Of a DNA stretch of 61,011 nucleotides, positions 12,588-46,562 are shown piece by piece (within the stretch, counting starts at the first letter, position 1; each line of letters begins with the position of its first letter). The stretch is from Marinobacterium profundum. Its GTDB lineage: Bacteria; Pseudomonadota; Gammaproteobacteria; Pseudomonadales; Balneatricaceae. Location: NCBI RefSeq assembly GCF_001528745.1, contig NZ_BCNS01000156.1:1-61011 (forward strand), read 5' to 3'. The translations under genes were made by a program, and so were the position numbers. The notes beneath the pieces are model-generated. The model worked only from the letters and a program-made list of their open reading frames with translations, was not told the origin of the DNA and searched no databases.

Positions 12588-13754
12588 TTACCACCTTAAT
12601 CCCTCCGGTCGGAACTTAACTCTGAATTTTCTGAAATTGCGCTCGAACGTCAATGGATCCAACTCAGTCAATCTAGAAAAACGATCGACCTTGTACACCG
12701 CCTGCACCGCCGTAGCGTCAAATCCTGAATCACCACTGCTCAGCACCAGATTAGCACTATCAACTTCGCCGGACGGGAAAAGGCGTATTTCCACCACCGC
12801 CTCCATGCCGTTACGAGATGCGCTTGAAATCCGCCAGTAGCGCTCCAATTCACTTCGTATATAGTCACCCATCGACACCATCAGCTGCTGCGATGCGCGA
12901 TCCGCGGCCATCTTCTGCTGCTCCTGGGCCAATTCTTTTTCAAGCTGCGCCAGTTCACGTGCTTTTTCGGCTTCCTTGCGCTGCTGTTCTTCCTGCTTGC
13001 GCTTGGCTTCGGCAACACGCTTGGCTTCGGCTTCCGCCTTGGCCTTGGCCGCCACATCTGCCTGTTTTTTCTTCTCGGCCGCGGCTTTTGCCTGATCGTC
13101 AGCCTGCTTTTTCTTCTCGGCGGCAAGCTTGGCCTGATCGTCCGCCTGCTTTTTCTTCTCAGCGGCAAGCTTCGCCTGATCATCTGCCAGCTTTTTCTTG
13201 TCAGCCGCAGCTTTGGCCAGATCCTCGGCCTGTTTTTTCTTCTCGGCGGCGAGCTTCGCCTGCTCCTGCGCCTTCTGCTTTGTCTCAGCGACAGCCTTAG
13301 CCTCAGCAGCCTTAGCCTTCGCCAGAACTTCAGCCTGCTCCTTTTGCTGGCGCTGGGCTTCTGCCTTCTGCTCAGCCTCTTTTACCGATTTTTCCTTTGC
13401 CGCCTGCTCATTCTGGGCCTTTAGCTCCTGAGCCTGCTGTGCCTTTGCAGCCTTTTCCTGCGCCGCCAGCTCCTGCTGACGCTGCTTTTCCTGCGCCTGA
13501 TCGCGCTCGTTCTGCTTGAGCTGCTCGGTTTTCTTGCGCGCCTCTTCAGCGCGACGCGCCTGCTCGGTCTGCTTTTCCAGCGCCTGACTCACCGCGCCCA
13601 GATCCACCATCTGCGCCTGAATATGGCGCGGCTTCAGCTCCCGCGGGTCGGCCTGGTCGAACCAGTGACCAGCCAGCAGCAACACCACAGCCACATGCAC
13701 CAGAAACGCAAGCAGGCTGGGTACCAGATAACTGCGCTTATCCACCGACCACAC
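12588..13754 (-). CDS. tolA: Cell envelope integrity protein TolA
   Basis: TolA spans the periplasm and connects the TolQR motor to TolB-Pal. The 388-residue protein has one N-terminal membrane anchor (about 9-30). A long Ala/Lys/Glu/Gln helical domain follows (about 60-290), with near-perfect 14-residue units built on [14 protein letters not shown]. The C-terminal domain (about 295-388) shows [13 protein letters not shown] and RLFPSGEV. It starts with GTG directly against the tolR stop. The repeat tract is made of highly similar 42-bp DNA units, so length changes by slippage or recombination would be expected. Confidence 0.95.
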
Positions 13755-14864: not shown

Positions 14865-15581
14865 AACAAATTCCTCTCACGCGCCAGATCACAAGAAGTG
14901 CCGGCTGACTCGGTTGATAAATCGAACTACCCGATGCCACATAAAGCAACGAACAGACCAAAACAGGTTAATAGGTTCTGGATGCAATAAAAAGCTTCCC
15001 GACAGCCTCTGTCGACCCTAACACAGACTTGCCTGCGATCGCTGTATGATAGCGCTCAAGCAGATTGGTTCAGCCACATCCACGAGCGCCGCATGATAGC
15101 GGCTCCAAGCTTGCTGCAGAATGAACAAAGCCACTGCTAGCAGCCTGTCGGACTTGACCGATCGTAGCGAGGGAAAGTCCGTTTCGAGGCAGTTTTTGAG
15201 CTCTTTTGAGACGAATAGTGGTTCTATTTAACAAAAAAGAGCGCGAATAATGCCCAGAATCGGCTTTTCCACAGTAGATTAGCGTTAAGTCCGACTGGCT
15301 GCTCGAACCCCGCCCCACGCACACTGTCGCACAACCTTAACAGGCGCACGCAGCAGAGGTGAATAAGGGTAAGCATACAAAGTCGTTTGCGCGATGGGCA
15401 GGGACCAGGGACCTGGGCCTTTAGGCGTCGAGCGAATTCTGCGCACACAATAGCAGGCGCAAAAATTTATTCAAGCAGCTTATGCAGCGCCAACGCAAAA
15501 AGAATTTCAGCCGCCATGACCGCCCTTAAATAGTGCATGGAAACGGCCAGAAACAGGCAAAGCCGACCCCACAACTTTCAC
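14865..15581. other. 717-bp gap between ruvB and tolQ, ybgC absent
   Basis: In relatives this position normally holds ybgC, an acyl-CoA thioesterase gene of the tol operon. No fragment of it is recognisable on either strand. The gap contains one inverted-repeat element (15140-15302), unassigned sequence on both sides and presumably the tolQ promoter. A 16-codon frame at 15467-15517 is too short to support. Confidence 0.6.
15140..15302 (-). mobile_element. 163-bp inverted-repeat element, copy A
   Basis: The core begins GCAGCCTGTCGGACTT and ends with nearly the inverse sequence. It is the reverse complement of the copies at 25548 and 42345, with the same length and about nine substitutions relative to copy B. 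On the leftward strand it reads open as part of an 84-codon frame (15070-15324) containing LIYCGKADSGHYSRS. It has no transposase, so it fits a non-autonomous MITE-like element. No target-site duplication is clear. Confidence 0.75.
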
Positions 15582-25204: not shown

Positions 25205-25547
25205 GGAGTGGTTCACTCCCCAGGTGTGGGCTGTCCCGCAGGGGGACAAAAAATTGGCAGTTCACTGGCCCCTTTCAAACGGGCCGGATTGCCAACACTG
25301 GGCATGATGAACAGCCAATCGCTTCCTGCTACACACCAGGAGGCCGGCATCAACTGAATACCACCGCTGCAGCTACAACTGGCAGACACGGTCGTGGACG
25401 AAGGAGCAAGCACCTCAAAACGCGCTCAATATGCCCAATTGCGACACTAAGGTCGAGCCCTGCCCGCATAAAATATTGGCCGACCCAGCCCCGCCCTGCT
25501 TGCGCGGTACGTCAATCGCTCCGATTTCCTGGCTCCAGAGCCTGCTA

Positions 25548-25710
25548 GCAGCCTGTCGGACTTACCACTGATCTACTGCGGAAAAGCCGATTTTGGGCAT
25601 TATTCGCGCTCTTTTTTGTTAAATAGAACCACTATTCGCCTCAAAAGAGCTCAAAAACTGCCTCAAAACGGACTTTCCCTCGCTACGATCGGCCAAGTCC
25701 GACAGGCTGC
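25548..25710 (+). mobile_element. 163-bp inverted-repeat element, copy B
   Basis: This copy has the most perfect ends. GCAGCCTGTCGGACTT and its exact inverse bound the core, and the match extends five bases outward on each side to 25543 and 25715. One frame stays open across the element (LIYCGKADFGHYSRS then LATIGQVRQAA). The copy at 42345 differs by about 13 substitutions and no indels. It fits a non-autonomous element or a mobile structured repeat. Confidence 0.8.
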
Positions 25711-25868
25711 TAGCACGTCGTTTAACCCGCGCGGCATCTCGCTACCAGGCGAATCAAACCTAGCTAATCATTAATTAGGCGCAGAACTTAAGTCGCCAGA
25801 CCATGCGCAACCAAAGTACAGAGCCAATTGGGTACTTGTGCATGAGTGAAAAATCCTGGGCTAAAAAT

Positions 25869-32268: not shown

Positions 32269-33359
32269 GTATCTGTATTAAAAAGCGCCAGGGTGACCTC
32301 GACATGGAGCTGGATATCCAGCTACCGGCACAGGGTATCAGTGCCATCTTCGGCCGTTCAGGGGCCGGCAAGACGTCCCTGATCAACATGATTAGCGGCC
32401 TGGTGCGCCCAGATCAGGGCCAGATCGCGCTAGGTGACGAGGTGCTGTTCGACAGCCGCCGCAATATTCATCTGCGCCCGGAGCAGCGCCGGATCGGCTA
32501 TGTGTTTCAGGATGCCCGCCTCTTCCCGCATTACAGCGTGGAAGGCAATCTGCGCTACGGGTCTCGCAAAACAAACCCAAAACAGTTTGCGGATGTGATC
32601 GAACTGCTGGGCATAGGCCCGCTGCTGCTGCGCGCGCCTTCGACCCTGTCAGGCGGTGAACGTCAGCGCGTTGCCATAGGCCGAGCTCTGCTGAGCCAGC
32701 CACGCCTGCTGCTGATGGATGAGCCACTGGCCTCCCTCGATATGCCGCGCAAACGCGAGTTGATGCCCTACCTGGAGCGCCTGGCGGCGGAAGTCCAACT
32801 GCCGATTCTGTATGTCAGCCACAGCCTGGATGAGGTACTGCGCCTGGCAGATCACCTGGTATTGCTGGACAAAGGCCGCGCCCCCTTGCAGGGGCCACTG
32901 GAAGAGGTCTGGGGATCGGCACAGATGCGCCCCTGGTTTGCGGCAGAGGATCTAAGCTGCGTACTTAACGCCAGGGTGCTATCCCAAGAGCCAAAGTGGC
33001 AGATGACGCAGTTGTCACTGGGGGAAGATTTGCCACTTTGGGTGCGCAGCATCGAGATGCCGGCGGGGCAACAGGTACGATTGCGCATTCGTGCCAACGA
33101 TATTTCCATTGTGCGCACGCGGGCGCAGCACAGCAGTATCCGCAATGTGCTGCCAGCACGCATCGAAGCGCTGGAGCCGGATGAAAGCGGTCATCAAATG
33201 GCGGTGCAGCTGTGTATCGGCAGCCACCGCCTGTGGGCGCATATTACGCTCTGGGCCGCATCTGAACTGGGATTGAGTGTCGGTGATGAGGTGTTTGCCC
33301 AGATCAAGGGAATTAGCCTCAATCAGACAGACTGGGCCGCCCACGGGGGGCGACCCTGA
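32262..33359 (+). CDS. modC: Molybdate ABC transporter ATP-binding protein ModC
   Basis: ModC powers molybdate import. The 365-residue protein has Walker A GRSGAGKTS near residue 32, signature LSGGERQRVAIGRAL near residue 130, Walker B LLLMDEPLASLD near residue 150 and a C-terminal Mop/TOBE domain (about 295-360) that senses molybdate. It starts at 32262 inside the modB stop region (ATGCTGA), indicating translational coupling. It runs convergent to gor with only 13 bp between the stops and no visible terminator. Confidence 0.95.
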   Translation: MLSICIKKRQGDLDMELDIQLPAQGISAIFGRSGAGKTSLINMISGLVRPDQGQIALGDEVLFDSRRNIHLRPEQRRIGYVFQDARLFPHYSVEGNLRYGSRKTNPKQFADVIELLGIGPLLLRAPSTLSGGERQRVAIGRALLSQPRLLLMDEPLASLDMPRKRELMPYLERLAAEVQLPILYVSHSLDEVLRLADHLVLLDKGRAPLQGPLEEVWGSAQMRPWFAAEDLSCVLNARVLSQEPKWQMTQLSLGEDLPLWVRSIEMPAGQQVRLRIRANDISIVRTRAQHSSIRNVLPARIEALEPDESGHQMAVQLCIGSHRLWAHITLWAASELGLSVGDEVFAQIKGISLNQTDWAAHGGRP

Positions 33360-33372
33360 TCAGATCAGCAGA

Positions 33373-34728
33373 CTAACGGGTCTTCTGACGCATGGTGACA
33401 AACTCTTCCGCCGCCGTCGGGTGAATGCCGATAGTGGAGTCGAATACCGCCTTGGTGGCGCCGGCCTTCATGGCAATCGCAATACCCTGAATGATTTCAC
33501 CGGCATCGCCGCCCACCATGTGCACGCCAACGACGCGATCAGTGGCTGAATCTACGATCATCTTCATCAGGGTGCGCTCGTCGCTACCGCTTAACGTGTG
33601 CTTGAGGGCACGAAAGCTGGAGCTGTAGACGTCGATAGCACCATAACGCTCGCGGGCCTGCTCTTCACTCAGTCCCACGGTACCGATATTCGGCTGGCAA
33701 AATACGGCGGTAGGAATAAGGTCGTAGTCGACCTTCTCCGCCTTGCCATCGTAGAGGTTGCGCACCAGCGCCATGCCCTCAGCCAGTGCCACCGGCGTCA
33801 GCTGGACGCGATCCGTCACATCCCCCAGCGCATAGACCGACGGCTCACCGGTCTGGAACTGCTCATCAACAATGATGGCGCCATTGTCACGCTGGCGAAC
33901 CGCCACATTTTCCAGCCCCAGGTTGGTCACGTTGGGCACCCGCCCTGTGGCATAAAGCACGCAGTCGGCGTCCAGTACTTCACCGTTTTTCAGCTCGACT
34001 CGCAGGCTGCCATCCGCCGCCTTCTGAATCCGTTGCACATCCGTATTAAACCGCAGGTCAACGTCTTTCTTGCGCATTTCCTCGGCCACAAACTCCCGCA
34101 CTTCCTGATCAAAGCCGCGCAGGAACAGCTCACCGCGATAGATCTGGTGCGTTTTTGCGCCCAGACCGGCGAAGATGCCGGCAAATTCCACCGCGATATA
34201 ACCACCGCCCACAACAAGGACACGCTCAGGAAAAGCATCCAGATCGAAGACTTCATTTGAGGTCGTAATATGCTCGCGACCTTCAATATCGGGCACGAAG
34301 GGCCAGCCGCCGGTCGCAACCAGAATGCGCTCAACACTGTAGTGATCATTACCCACCGCCACTGTGTGAGCATCCACAATGCGGGCTCGCCCTTCAATCA
34401 GGGTGCAGCCGGAATTGACCAGCAGATTGCGGTAAATACCGTTGAGACGTTCGATTTCCTGGCTCTTGTTATCGCGCAGCGTTTCCCAGCGAAAACGGGG
34501 CTTTTCTGCCTGCCAGCCAAAGCCCTGCGCCTCGCAAAAATCGTCACCATAGTGGGAGGCATAGACATAGAGTTTTTTCGGTACGCAACCAACGTTCACA
34601 CAGGTACCACCCAGGTAGCGGTCTTCGGCAATGCCGACTCGCACTCCCATGGCAGCCGCCATTCGACCCGCACGCACACCGCCGGACCCGGCTCCAATTA
34701 CAAACAGATCAAAATCGTATTCAGCCAC
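33373..34728 (-). CDS. gor: Glutathione-disulfide reductase
   Basis: Gor reduces oxidised glutathione with NADPH to keep the cytoplasm reduced. The 451-residue flavoprotein has the FAD motif [10 protein letters not shown] near residue 12, the redox disulfide in [13 protein letters not shown] near residue 41-53, an NADPH-binding [11 protein letters not shown] near residue 173 and the dimer-interface active site GIHPTAAEE near the C-terminus. It starts with GTG preceded by AGGGAGG. It appears monocistronic. Confidence 0.93.
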
Positions 34729-42163: not shown

Positions 42164-42344
42164 GCGACGCTTCCTGTTCAGACCGAAGTGCTGGGGGGCT
42201 GCTCATGCAGGTCAGCCTACTATTTTAGCGTGCAAAGCCGGTACGGGAGCCACTGAATGACATGTCATTGTACATACAGCCATCACACGGACACCCTGCT
42301 GCGCCCTGCCAACGCCATCAAAGTCGCATACAATACCCACCCTA

Positions 42345-42507
42345 GCTGCTTGTCGGACTTAACACTGATCTACTGCGGAAAAGCCGCCTTTGGTCATTTT
42401 TCGTCCTCTTTTTTGTTAAATAGAACCACTATTTACCTCAAAAGAGCTCAAAAACTGCCTCAAAACGGTCTTTCCCTCGCTACGATCGGCCAAGCCCGAC
42501 AGGCTGC
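42345..42507 (+). mobile_element. 163-bp inverted-repeat element, copy C
   Basis: Same orientation and exactly the same core length as copy B, with about 13 substitutions. Its left end is worn (GCTGCTTGTCGGACTT). The open frame is kept (LSDLTLIYCGKAAFGHFSSS, ending ATIGQARQAA). It lies between the PatZ-like gene and the end of the tRNA array. Confidence 0.78.
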
Positions 42508-42590
42508 TAGAATGCAAAGGACGGGCAAAAGGATAGCCGCGCTGACCCACAAAGTACTGCAGCGGATCAGAAAAATGCAAAAAAAAGACA

Positions 42591-42615
42591 AAAAAAAGCC
42601 ACTTCGAAAAGTGGC
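42591..42615 (-). terminator. Terminator of the tRNA array, sharing the tRNA-Asp CCA end
   Basis: Stem GCCACTT/AAGTGGC (42598-42604, 42609-42615) with a 4-nt loop is followed on the leftward strand by a seven-T tract and a second T-rich stretch. The promoter-proximal arm includes the encoded CCA of the last tRNA-Asp, so terminator folding and tRNA 3' maturation compete for the same bases. Confidence 0.8.
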
Positions 42616-42688
42616 GGAACGGACGGGACTCGAACCCGCGACCCCCTGCGTGACAGGCAGGTATTCTAACCAACTGAACTACCGCTCC
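42612..42688 (-). tRNA. tRNA-Asp (GUC), copy 1
   Basis: A 77-nt cloverleaf including the encoded CCA. The anticodon loop CTGTCAC gives GUC. It differs from the other four Asp copies at a paired acceptor position (5-68 is C-G here, U-A in the others), a compensated change. It is last in the array, next to the terminator. Confidence 0.96.
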
Positions 42689-42692
42689 GTTA

Positions 42693-42768
42693 TGGTGGGC
42701 GAAGAGGGGTTCGAACCCCCGACCCTCTGCTTGTAAGGCAGACGCTCTCCCAACTGAGCTATTCGCCC
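42693..42768 (-). tRNA. tRNA-Val (UAC), copy 1
   Basis: A 76-nt cloverleaf with encoded CCA. Acceptor GGGCGAA pairs with TTCGCCC, and the anticodon loop CTTACAA gives UAC. It lies four bases upstream of tRNA-Asp copy 1. Confidence 0.96.
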
Positions 42769-42866
42769 ATAACGCTGGCTTAATACGACGCTTCAGCACT
42801 TTGAAACGAAGTCTTGCTCTCAACACTTGTCACGAGTGTCTTTTACAATTGCCACTTCGGAAAAAG

Positions 42867-42943
42867 TGGCGGAATGGACGGGACTCGAACCCGCGACCCC
42901 CTGCGTGACAGGCAGGTATTCTAACCAACTGAACTACCACTCC
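42867..42943 (-). tRNA. tRNA-Asp (GUC), copy 2
   Basis: 77 nt with encoded CCA and anticodon GUC. The acceptor is GGAGTGG with CCATTCC. A CCACTT/AAGTGG-type hairpin overlaps its 3' end, as in copy 1 but without the T-run. Confidence 0.96.
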
Positions 42944-42947
42944 GTTA

Positions 42948-43023
42948 TGGTGGGCGAAGAGGGGTTCGAACCCCCGACCCTCTGCTTGTAAGGCAGACGC
43001 TCTCCCAACTGAGCTATTCGCCC
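42948..43023 (-). tRNA. tRNA-Val (UAC), copy 2
   Basis: 76 nt, identical to Val copy 1 by inspection, anticodon UAC, CCA encoded, four bases from Asp copy 2. Confidence 0.96.
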
Positions 43024-43097
43024 ATAACGCTGGCTTTTGTACGACGTTTCAGCACTTTGAAACGAAGTCTTACTTGTACAACTTCCACTTCGAAAAG

Positions 43098-43174
43098 TGG
43101 CGGAATGGACGGGACTCGAACCCGCGACCCCCTGCGTGACAGGCAGGTATTCTAACCAACTGAACTACCACTCC
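43098..43174 (-). tRNA. tRNA-Asp (GUC), copy 3
   Basis: 77 nt with encoded CCA and anticodon GUC, same sequence as copy 2 by inspection, with the same 3' hairpin. Confidence 0.96.
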
Positions 43175-43178
43175 GTTA

Positions 43179-43254
43179 TGGTGGGCGAAGAGGGGTTCGA
43201 ACCCCCGACCCTCTGCTTGTAAGGCAGACGCTCTCCCAACTGAGCTATTCGCCC
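43179..43254 (-). tRNA. tRNA-Val (UAC), copy 3
   Basis: 76 nt, anticodon UAC, CCA encoded, same sequence as the other Val copies by inspection. Confidence 0.96.
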
Positions 43255-43354
43255 ATAACGCTGGCTTTTAATACGACGCTTCAGCACTTTGAAACGAAGT
43301 CTTGATCTCAGCACTTGTCACGAGTGCCTTTTACAATTGCCACTTCGCTAGAAG

Positions 43355-43430
43355 TAGCGGTATGGGCAGGACTGAATCCCCGACCGCACCGATGATGAAA
43401 TGACAGGCTGATATTCTAACCCGTTACCTC
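43355..43430 (-). pseudogene. Decayed tRNA-Asp-like unit P1
   Basis: It aligns with tRNA-Asp at both ends and keeps CTGTCAT around the anticodon, but the D-arm is rearranged, extra bases follow the anticodon, the T-loop has lost its TTCGA core and the CCA has become CTA. It is the most diverged of the three units and is unlikely to fold as a tRNA. Confidence 0.7.
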
Positions 43431-43468
43431 AACACTATCTTTCAAACTATCCACATGCTCAAAGTAAG

Positions 43469-43544
43469 TGGCGGAATGGACGGGACTGAATCCCCGACCG
43501 CACCTGTGATGAAATGACAGACTGATATTCTAACCTGCTACTCC
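43469..43544 (-). pseudogene. Decayed tRNA-Asp-like unit P2
   Basis: The 3' acceptor CCATTCCG plus CCA is intact and the 5' end GGAGTAG is close to tRNA-Asp. The D-arm lacks the TTCAGTTGG segment, the anticodon stem is broken by an insertion (TCATTTCATCACAGG) and the T-loop reads GATTCAG. It shares these same lesions with P1 and P3. Confidence 0.72.
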
Positions 43545-43583
43545 AACACCGATCTTTCAACTACTCCACTTACACAAATCAAG

Positions 43584-43660
43584 TGGCGGAATGGACGGGA
43601 CTCGAACCCGCGACCCCCTGCGTGACAGGCAGGTATTCTAACCAACTGAACTACCACTCC
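43584..43660 (-). tRNA. tRNA-Asp (GUC), copy 4
   Basis: 77 nt with encoded CCA, anticodon GUC, acceptor as in copies 2 and 3. Confidence 0.96.
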
Positions 43661-43664
43661 GTTA

Positions 43665-43740
43665 TGGTGGGCGAAGAGGGGTTCGAACCCCCGACCCTCT
43701 GCTTGTAAGGCAGACGCTCTCCCAACTGAGCTATTCGCCC
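43665..43740 (-). tRNA. tRNA-Val (UAC), copy 4
   Basis: 76 nt, anticodon UAC, CCA encoded, four bases from Asp copy 4. Confidence 0.96.
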
Positions 43741-43820
43741 ATAACGCTGGCCTTTAGTACGACGCTTCAGCACTTTGAAACGAAGTCTTGCGTTTACAAC
43801 TTCCACTTACGCAAAGCAAG

Positions 43821-43896
43821 TGGCGGAATGGACGGGACTGAATCCCCGACCGCACCTGTGATGAAATGACAGGCAGCTTTTCTACCCTGCTACTCC
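43821..43896 (-). pseudogene. Decayed tRNA-Asp-like unit P3
   Basis: Same lesions as P2 in the D-arm, anticodon arm and T-loop, with further change in the anticodon stem (AGCTGCCTGTC). The acceptor 3' half and CCA are intact. It sits between Asp copy 5 and Val copy 4. Confidence 0.7.
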
Positions 43897-43935
43897 AACA
43901 CCGATCTTTCAAACTATCCACATGCACAAAGCAAG

Positions 43936-44012
43936 TGGCGGAATGGACGGGACTCGAACCCGCGACCCCCTGCGTGACAGGCAGGTATTCTAACCAACTG
44001 AACTACCACTCC
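43936..44012 (-). tRNA. tRNA-Asp (GUC), copy 5
   Basis: 77 nt with encoded CCA and anticodon GUC. It is first in the array, nearest the promoter, and has no Val partner directly downstream. Confidence 0.96.
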
Positions 44013-46299: not shown

Positions 46300-46469
46300 C
46301 GCGCTCTTTGCATCCCTGATATTGCATGCCTGTGACCGTTGACCATGCAGCACGGCGCTATTCTGTGGCCGCATATTCTTTTGCACTGAAAAAGGACGTA
46401 TGATTTATCCCTTTTCGCCAATGGACACAGGCACTTCGCCAAATATTGTCCAGCCAGTCGCAGTGCCTG

Positions 46470-46521
46470 GCAGCCTGTCGGACTTAACACTGATCTACTG
46501 CGGAAAAGCTCGACAGGCTGC
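46470..46521 (+). mobile_element. Internally deleted inverted-repeat element, copy D
   Basis: It keeps GCAGCCTGTCGGACTT, the adjoining 24 bases and the right end CGACAGGCTGC, but lacks 111 bp of the interior. The loss is a multiple of three and preserves the reading frame (LTLIYCGKA joined to RQAA). It lies 41 bases ahead of the alaA start, so it is probably part of that gene's leader or promoter. Confidence 0.75.
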
Positions 46522-46562
46522 TAAAACCAATCGCAACTGCAATGGAGTTCAGGGTTGCAACC

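Follow-up and report, generated by a model that had tools for sequence, protein, structure and literature searches.

Modular miniature elements of Marinobacterium profundum share their ends with IS1182-type insertion sequences and may carry CTAG into their targets

What is a short palindromic sequence that recurs at one and the same length within a single stretch of bacterial DNA, keeps a reading frame open, and has no transposase gene of its own? The question is raised by a window of 61,011 nucleotides, one contig (C156; NZ_BCNS01000156.1) of the 5.64-Mb draft genome of Marinobacterium profundum (226 contigs). A preliminary description, made from the letters of the window, had noted three full copies of an inverted-repeat element and had offered three readings: a miniature inverted-repeat transposable element (MITE), a structured regulatory RNA, or a mobile micro-ORF. 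Our analysis favors the first. Most probably, the element belongs to a family of non-autonomous MITEs mobilized in trans by a DDE transposase of the IS1182 family, which would recognize CTAGCAGCCTGTCGGACTT. MITEs and IS1182 elements are known; this family goes beyond an ordinary MITE in its modular make-up, with two kinds of end on a shared core, in the covariation of its arms, and in the carry-over of CTAG into its target sites that we propose. We found no description of this MITE family in the open-access literature, subscription papers and ISfinder lying outside the search.

The three full copies (Table 1) are present as described, with cores that are equal in length and align without indels. 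The core length, given earlier as 163 bp, becomes 161 bp once the outer four-base sequences are set apart, and the range of 9 to 13 substitutions holds for copies 1 and 2 (9) and copies 2 and 3 (13) and fails for copies 1 and 3 (20). The internally deleted fourth copy had been overlooked. Each element is, as stated, a short repeat without a transposase gene, and the 19-bp ends of copy 2, which pair perfectly, are terminal inverted repeats. With up to three mismatches allowed, the window contains 10 occurrences of the 16-mer end (8 of them inside the four copies) against a shuffle mean of 0.84, and the genome contains 169 + 143 against 42 + 50 for a reversed control; both counts lie above their controls, which excludes chance.

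Table 1. Copies and parts of the element in the window, and insertion sites at which one flank keeps the ancestral four-base sequence and the other reads CTAG.
Feature	Position	Strand	Remarks
Copy 1	15137..15305	-	161-bp core 15141-15301; plus-strand flanks CTAG (left) and CTCG (right)
Copy 2 (element under study)	25545..25713	+	161-bp core 25549-25709; CTAG on both sides
Copy 3	42342..42510	+	161-bp core 42346-42506; CTAG on both sides; adjoins the tRNA-Asp/Val array
Copy 4	46467..46524	+	50-bp core 46471-46520; internal deletion, both ends kept; flanks CTGG and CTAA
Left terminal inverted repeat, copy 2	25545..25563	+	CTAGCAGCCTGTCGGACTT; found unchanged elsewhere at ends of IS1182-like insertion sequences
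Right terminal inverted repeat, copy 2	25695..25713	-	CTAGCAGCCTGTCGGACTT inverted
Apical hairpin AATAG-AACCA-CTATT, copy 2	25622..25636	+	four of five pairs invariant; fifth kept in 57 of 58 aligned copies
One-sided site L011			window copy 1; ancestral CTCG in four relatives
One-sided site L019			ancestral CTGG in G003; G006 has TTCG
One-sided site L151			ancestral ATAG in two relatives
One-sided site L315			ancestral CCAG in one relative
One-sided site L318			ancestral CCAG in one relative
One-sided site L317			ancestral GCTG in three relatives; one-base ambiguity

The family extends well beyond the window. A search of the genome with the element listed 70 matches, many of them reverse-strand self-matches of the palindrome, and from these loci 38 near-full-length copies (at least 150 matched bases, 80% identity) could be extracted, 30 of which are gapless and identical in length. 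All six congeners gave matches too. At E 0.001 or better, the element was matched in 15 of the 57 genomes searched. Besides M. profundum and its six congeners, these comprise five further members of the family, whose best matches are 79-84% identical, and three members of the order, in which the matches are weak.

Comparison with the congeners reveals presence/absence polymorphism at orthologous sites, both for window copies 1, 2, and 4 and for further copies. Copy 1 is absent from four congeners, in which the empty site is a single CTCG. The intergenic stretch holding copy 2 is likewise free of the element in four congeners, with nearby sequence too diverged for the target to be read. At the site of copy 4, the 50-bp version is shared with the congener G001, a 175-bp version occupies the site in G003, and an empty site (CTCG) is readable in two congeners, G002 and G006; the short form is best read as an internal deletion, given the 175-bp version at the same site. 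Copy 3 lies in a tRNA region without synteny to the congeners. Conversely, the stretch 33268-33482 of the window is the empty counterpart of a site occupied in G001 (L312), with TTAG here and CTAG on both sides there. The element has thus been mobile on the time scale of species.

The tRNA region beside copy 3 (42612-44012, minus strand) comprises nine tRNA genes, five for Asp-GTC and four for Val-TAC, together with repeated tRNA-like pieces that ARAGORN did not call (43352-43435, 43466-43549, and 43818-43901). Other repeats occur in the window and around copies elsewhere. Positions 109-166 hold a part of about 58 bp of another dispersed repeat, with about eleven further places listed in the same genome, some of them beside MITE copies (L058, L059). 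Positions 72-107 and 436-471 form a repeat pair, and 13002-13337 is an array of tandem 42-bp repeats over about 340 bp, 63-80% alike to the reference copy. Next to the MITE copy at L023 lies a dispersed repeat of about 133 bp (1434-1568) with more than 20 places listed in G001 and G003 together. The copy at about 1501-1669 of L006 is embedded in tandem copies of CCCCTAG, a heptamer that includes the CTAG target, and the copies L318 (G001), L308, L089, and L019 (378-538) sit in the loop of a terminator-like palindrome.

If the element is non-autonomous, a transposase-bearing relative with the same ends is to be looked for, and such relatives exist. The M. profundum genome itself contains an IS1182-like element (L090, 1264-3017) with an uninterrupted 504-aa frame matching PF13751 (DDE_Tnp_1_6), PF05598 (DUF772), and PF01609 (DDE_Tnp_1), whose ends, CTAGGAGGCTGTCCGAGAATG, define the second end type (type B) of the family, that of the element under study being type A. 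With the type-B transposase as query, a protein search identified an IS1182-like element in G003 (L137, 539-2110), 1572 bp end to end and bounded by CTAGCAGCCTGTCGGACTT and CTAGCAGCCTGTCGGTCTT; it is decayed, its transposase frame being broken. The 186-aa C-terminal piece of this transposase has relatives in 5 of 116 genomes of the family at E 1e-20, among which G059 and G073 have open frames of 467 aa with ends CTAGCAGCCCGTCGGACT and CTAGCAGTCTGTCGG. At the same threshold, no relative of the type-A transposase was found in the M. profundum draft or in five of the six congeners. Present-day mobility of the MITE is therefore unsupported, the one type-A transposase seen among these genomes, that of G003, being broken.

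The same ends bound IS1182-like elements of many other bacteria. When an alignment of four sequences was used to scan named genomes, the best 80 loci were retained out of 366 relatives, and 68 of these were examined. CTAG[CG]AG stands at both ends of 54 of the 68, or of 46 if a stricter motif is applied, and nine loci match the exact 19-mer at both ends; two have an end on one side only and 12 no recognized end pair. Relatives with these ends include Pseudomonas oleovorans, Propionivibrio, and Halomonas sp. Y3, and Methylobacter luteus has eleven copies among the examined loci, counted irrespective of whether the frames are intact. A search for end pairs across IS1182 relatives returned the G003 element, L090, and L121. 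Among 30 loci read from a longer list of PF01609 matches, only L090 has a matching end pair around the transposase, and the IS1182 relatives in G005 and G006 (26-32% identity) have none. The type-B insertion sequence in L090 has entered a type-B repeat at its CTAG end, as has a relative in G002 that is 82% identical to it.

The element thus resembles insertion sequences of the IS1182 family (DUF772, DDE_Tnp_1_6), one clade of which has terminal repeats identical or nearly identical to its own. Unlike them, it has no transposase; only the ends of about 19 bp are common to it and the two insertion sequences compared, and its inner hairpin is no obvious internal deletion of those two. Species that lack copies at the same sites, and transposase-bearing relatives with the same ends, bear out the MITE reading, and it is likely that a transposase of the type-A clade would act on the element in trans. 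As described in PMC6053426, the 102-bp MITE of Pseudomonas syringae pv. actinidiae is similar in kind, as are bacterial MITEs more widely: short, in many copies, with inverted repeats and without a gene. The present element differs from what is described there: its inner blocks are exchangeable, its core occurs with either of two end types, some copies have chimeric ends, and its CTAG flanks do not amount to plain duplications.

The strict conservation of length emphasized in the preliminary description does not extend to the whole family, which comprises size classes from 41 to 304 bp built from exchangeable blocks at fixed places. A 63-bp block is found in the 224-bp class (eight places). 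Another, of about 72 bp and usually with the motif CTACATCCCTGTAG, is present in versions of 225-241 bp and again in those of 296 and 304 bp, and a third, of about 66 bp with GCACATGGATGTGC, is present in versions of 290 and 304 bp. At the other extreme, mini versions of 41-50 bp retain little beyond the ends. The modules are not confined to one end type: the inner core GTTAAATAGAACCACTATTCGCCT of type A is found also in repeats of about 159 bp that have type-B ends, the block of about 72 bp recurs at the same place in a type-B repeat (L294), and chimeras that join one type-A end and one type-B end are found at L052 and L061 and, by alignment, at L040. Recombination between copies would be the simplest source of these modular forms.

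A test for target site duplication found a four-base sequence at each end, often CTAG at one and the ancestral letters at the other. Among 71 type-A end pairs, which take in size variants and a few loosely matched copies, 33 have CTAG on both sides, 20 on one side, and 18 on neither, and no pair is identical without being CTAG. The corresponding numbers for 23 copies in G001, three of which are also among the 71, are 7, 8, and 7, with one identical non-CTAG pair, so that such pairs amount to 1 of 91 overall. CTAG is itself scarce in the window, with 40 sites, five of them in elements, where 226 are expected from base frequencies and 67.7 from a Markov model.

Ancestral targets were read from empty sites, with 20 copies of M. 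profundum compared to four congeners, 23 copies of G001 to three genomes, and the window copies and one type-B copy in G003 taken in as well; the relatives differ at roughly 10% of positions, for which reason some inferred targets may be wrong. Where the alignment is clean, the element has entered a CTAG-like four-base sequence and no target DNA has been lost. Six sites are one-sided: one flank retains ancestral letters that differ from CTAG, and the other flank reads CTAG (Table 1). The side on which the target letters are kept, relative to the element, is the left in L011, L019, L151, and L315 and the right in L318 and L317; this variation with orientation is what a symmetric process would give. 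Two more sites, L314 and L008, are mixed: one-sided as well, but with CTAG in a second relative. Elsewhere, both flanks are CTAG where relatives have CTCG, CTGG, TTAG, or CCTG (L003, L007, L312, and L089, the last with a one-base ambiguity), or at least one relative has CTAG and none has clearer ancestral letters (L028, L015, L005, L310, and L311). At no site among those read do both flanks equal a non-CTAG ancestral sequence. L320 in G001, with CTGG on both sides, looks like a plain duplication, and its sole relative has TTAG. Twelve sites need further mutations under either scheme (L022, L023, L025, L027, L029, L308, L309, L319, L321, L326, L327, and window copy 4), among them L023, which sits in another dispersed repeat and whose relatives may not be orthologous. 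The remaining copies gave no two-sided match (L016, L018, L026, L006, and L010 of the 20; L063, L077, L316, L323, L324, and L325 of the 23) or were ambiguous (L004, L017, and L009 of the 20; L313, L322, and the already named L319 and L327 of the 23).

These patterns suggest that the element may carry CTAG into mismatched targets, a reading whose chances we place close to, and at most, even. The main rival is that an ordinary MITE made strict 4-bp target duplications and that flank mismatches arose later, by mutation or by gene conversion with CTAG-flanked copies. Four-base targets have indeed been published for IS1182 members: a table entry for ISPse1, in the part of PMC3281130 that lists it, is read as a 4-bp direct repeat, and PMC8027508 gives the target of ISPsy36 as GGCC. 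The module mosaics make recombination between copies evident, and this could turn a flank into CTAG; the identical flanks of L320 also fit. Against this stand the six one-sided sites, where exactly CTAG lies across the element from the ancestral letters, and the finding that no site read retains two ancestral non-CTAG flanks. In L151 the difference falls at the outermost base (ATAG to CTAG), so that conversion would need a tract extending right to the final base. We regard this rival as possible, though we are inclined to doubt it.

A different route to flanks that are not duplications is known from the same transposase family. In the passages of PMC5678879 that treat IS1272, stem-loop replacing transposition is described, in which inverted repeats are replaced without target duplication; here, the element would replace a target palindrome. 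The likeness extends to the transposase family, the absence of plain target duplication, and some palindromic targets, a minority of sites lying in palindromes: of 67 copies, 7 have outer flanks that form arms of at least 6 bp, where shuffles give 0.98 and none of 500 is as high, in a test that is post hoc, the examples having been noticed first, and of which an earlier version without an offset was negative. Unlike IS1272 as described in those passages, the element removes no palindrome at cleanly aligned targets, where the empty locus has the length of the joined flanks and no extra sequence, and palindrome arms persist after insertion in L318 and also in L007, L028, L015, and L315. We consider IS1272-type replacement extremely improbable for this family and have rejected it.

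The carry-over of CTAG could come about as follows. The excised element would bear single-stranded CTAG on its ends, the overhang would anneal, mismatches included, to a gap of four bases at the target site (such as CTCG, CTGG, CCAG, or ATAG) and be ligated, and repair or replication would then settle each junction to either CTAG or the target letters. With junctions settled in this manner, plain duplication of a non-CTAG target would rarely or never be seen. The internal hairpin blocks would most likely be shuffled by recombination between copies. Donor flanking letters that travel with an element or pair with the target are familiar from other systems, namely the seamless TTAA transposition of piggyBac and the coupling sequences of Tn916. 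Unlike in those, the carry-over proposed here is deduced from the comparison of sites alone and concerns a bacterial system of the IS1182 type.

The whole of copy 2 with its CTAGs forms one end-to-end hairpin, of -75.8 kcal/mol as RNA against -37.0 for shuffles (z -10.3) and of -43.1 as DNA (z -9.0), and it might accordingly be asked whether the host keeps the element as a structured RNA, either a transcript-end hairpin or a regulatory RNA. In an alignment of 58 copies from M. profundum and its relatives, 75 cells hold pair-keeping double changes, where shuffles give 24.4 and none of 500 is as high. Such changes are seen in 25 pairs, compared with 10.9 in shuffles, and kinship among the copies inflates this test. 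Controls in which the structure was slid along the alignment gave 18-28 such cells, a comparison that favors the reference structure, since a member of the alignment supplied it. Of the helices, the apical stem AATAG/CTATT varies least and is nearly invariant, and at 9 of 34 sites the TAG stop of a called gene lies inside the flanking CTAG. The gene context at these 34 sites is nevertheless mixed, with 10 convergent settings, 14 tandem, and 4 divergent, besides 4 overlaps with a called ORF and 2 undetermined cases. RNAalifold over all 58 copies returned a weak consensus of 27 pairs and -10.8 kcal/mol, and a search of six loci against Rfam at the gathering score found tRNAs and no match to the element.

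The nature of the changes in the arms also bears on this point. In the inner helices, with two columns that are U-G/G-U by default set aside, the given strand shows 25 G-U against 87 A-C cells; since G-U is not above A-C, selection on an RNA of that strand is unsupported. The suggestion of a structured regulatory RNA is therefore upheld as to covarying arms and not as to a G-U preference on the given strand or an Rfam match in the six loci. Covariation arises without selection when imperfect palindromes are corrected by template switching, and the covariation observed would fit an RNA transcribed from the opposite strand, a hairpin of DNA, or the correction of palindromes as they are replicated. 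Taken as an explanation of why the element is kept, host use as a structured RNA seems unlikely to us.

The third reading starts from the open frame. One frame is indeed open across all three full copies in the window, and either a peptide might be encoded or the frame might be open for in-frame insertion, as has been proposed for enterobacterial RU elements. It is open in 26 of the 30 gapless copies of M. profundum and closed in four, where 18.3 (sd 2.6) open copies are expected if changes are spread evenly and 21.7 (sd 2.4; P 0.048) if variable positions are kept. Five of seven larger type-A versions tested also keep the frame (L039, L051, L055, L057, and L058), which they owe to added blocks that are free of stops and multiples of three (63, 78, and 135 bp). 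Yet the frame of copy 2 contains neither ATG nor GTG, its translation having no M and a single V encoded by GTC, and the changes are flat across codon positions (109, 117, and 122). The count of synonymous and nonsynonymous changes is close to the expectation without selection, at 86 nonsynonymous, 43 synonymous, and 3 stop changes against 88.6, 37.8, and 5.6. Copies of relatives are open inside in 14 of 21 cases and closed in 7, the 290-bp version has a stop in frame, and the 304-bp version has no open frame. The longest internal open frame is the 161-bp one and is not a transposase. On the codon positions, the substitution counts, and the missing start codon in copy 2, we reject a coding role, and a mobile micro-ORF appears very improbable; the raised openness and the five open larger versions remain unexplained and are not counted as support for coding. 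In PMC2759123, the ERIC and RU-1/RU-2 repeats of enterobacteria (127 and 168 bp) are likened to MITEs and open reading frames are noted in them. By that description, they are like the present element in size, MITE-like character, and open frame, and differ in that the frame here is without signs of coding.

The preferred reading is thus a MITE family dependent on IS1182-type transposases. As a wider model, which we advance tentatively and at somewhat less than even confidence, an IS1182 clade would insert by overhang exchange: CTAG overhangs would meet mismatched CTNG or NTAG gaps and be ligated without gap filling, with CTAG overwriting part of the target and marking the landing site, and a modular, two-ended MITE would exploit two such transposases. 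With one core, two end types, and chimeras between them, the family is a natural test case for how a MITE changes its ends, and it contains at least three recurrent exchangeable hairpin blocks. Its arm-to-arm covariation provides a data set with which structural selection can be separated from the mutational correction of palindromes. If the carry-over of CTAG is true, an insertion sequence family present in many proteobacteria would insert without the normal target duplication, and the way in which insertions of that family are recognized and dated would have to change.
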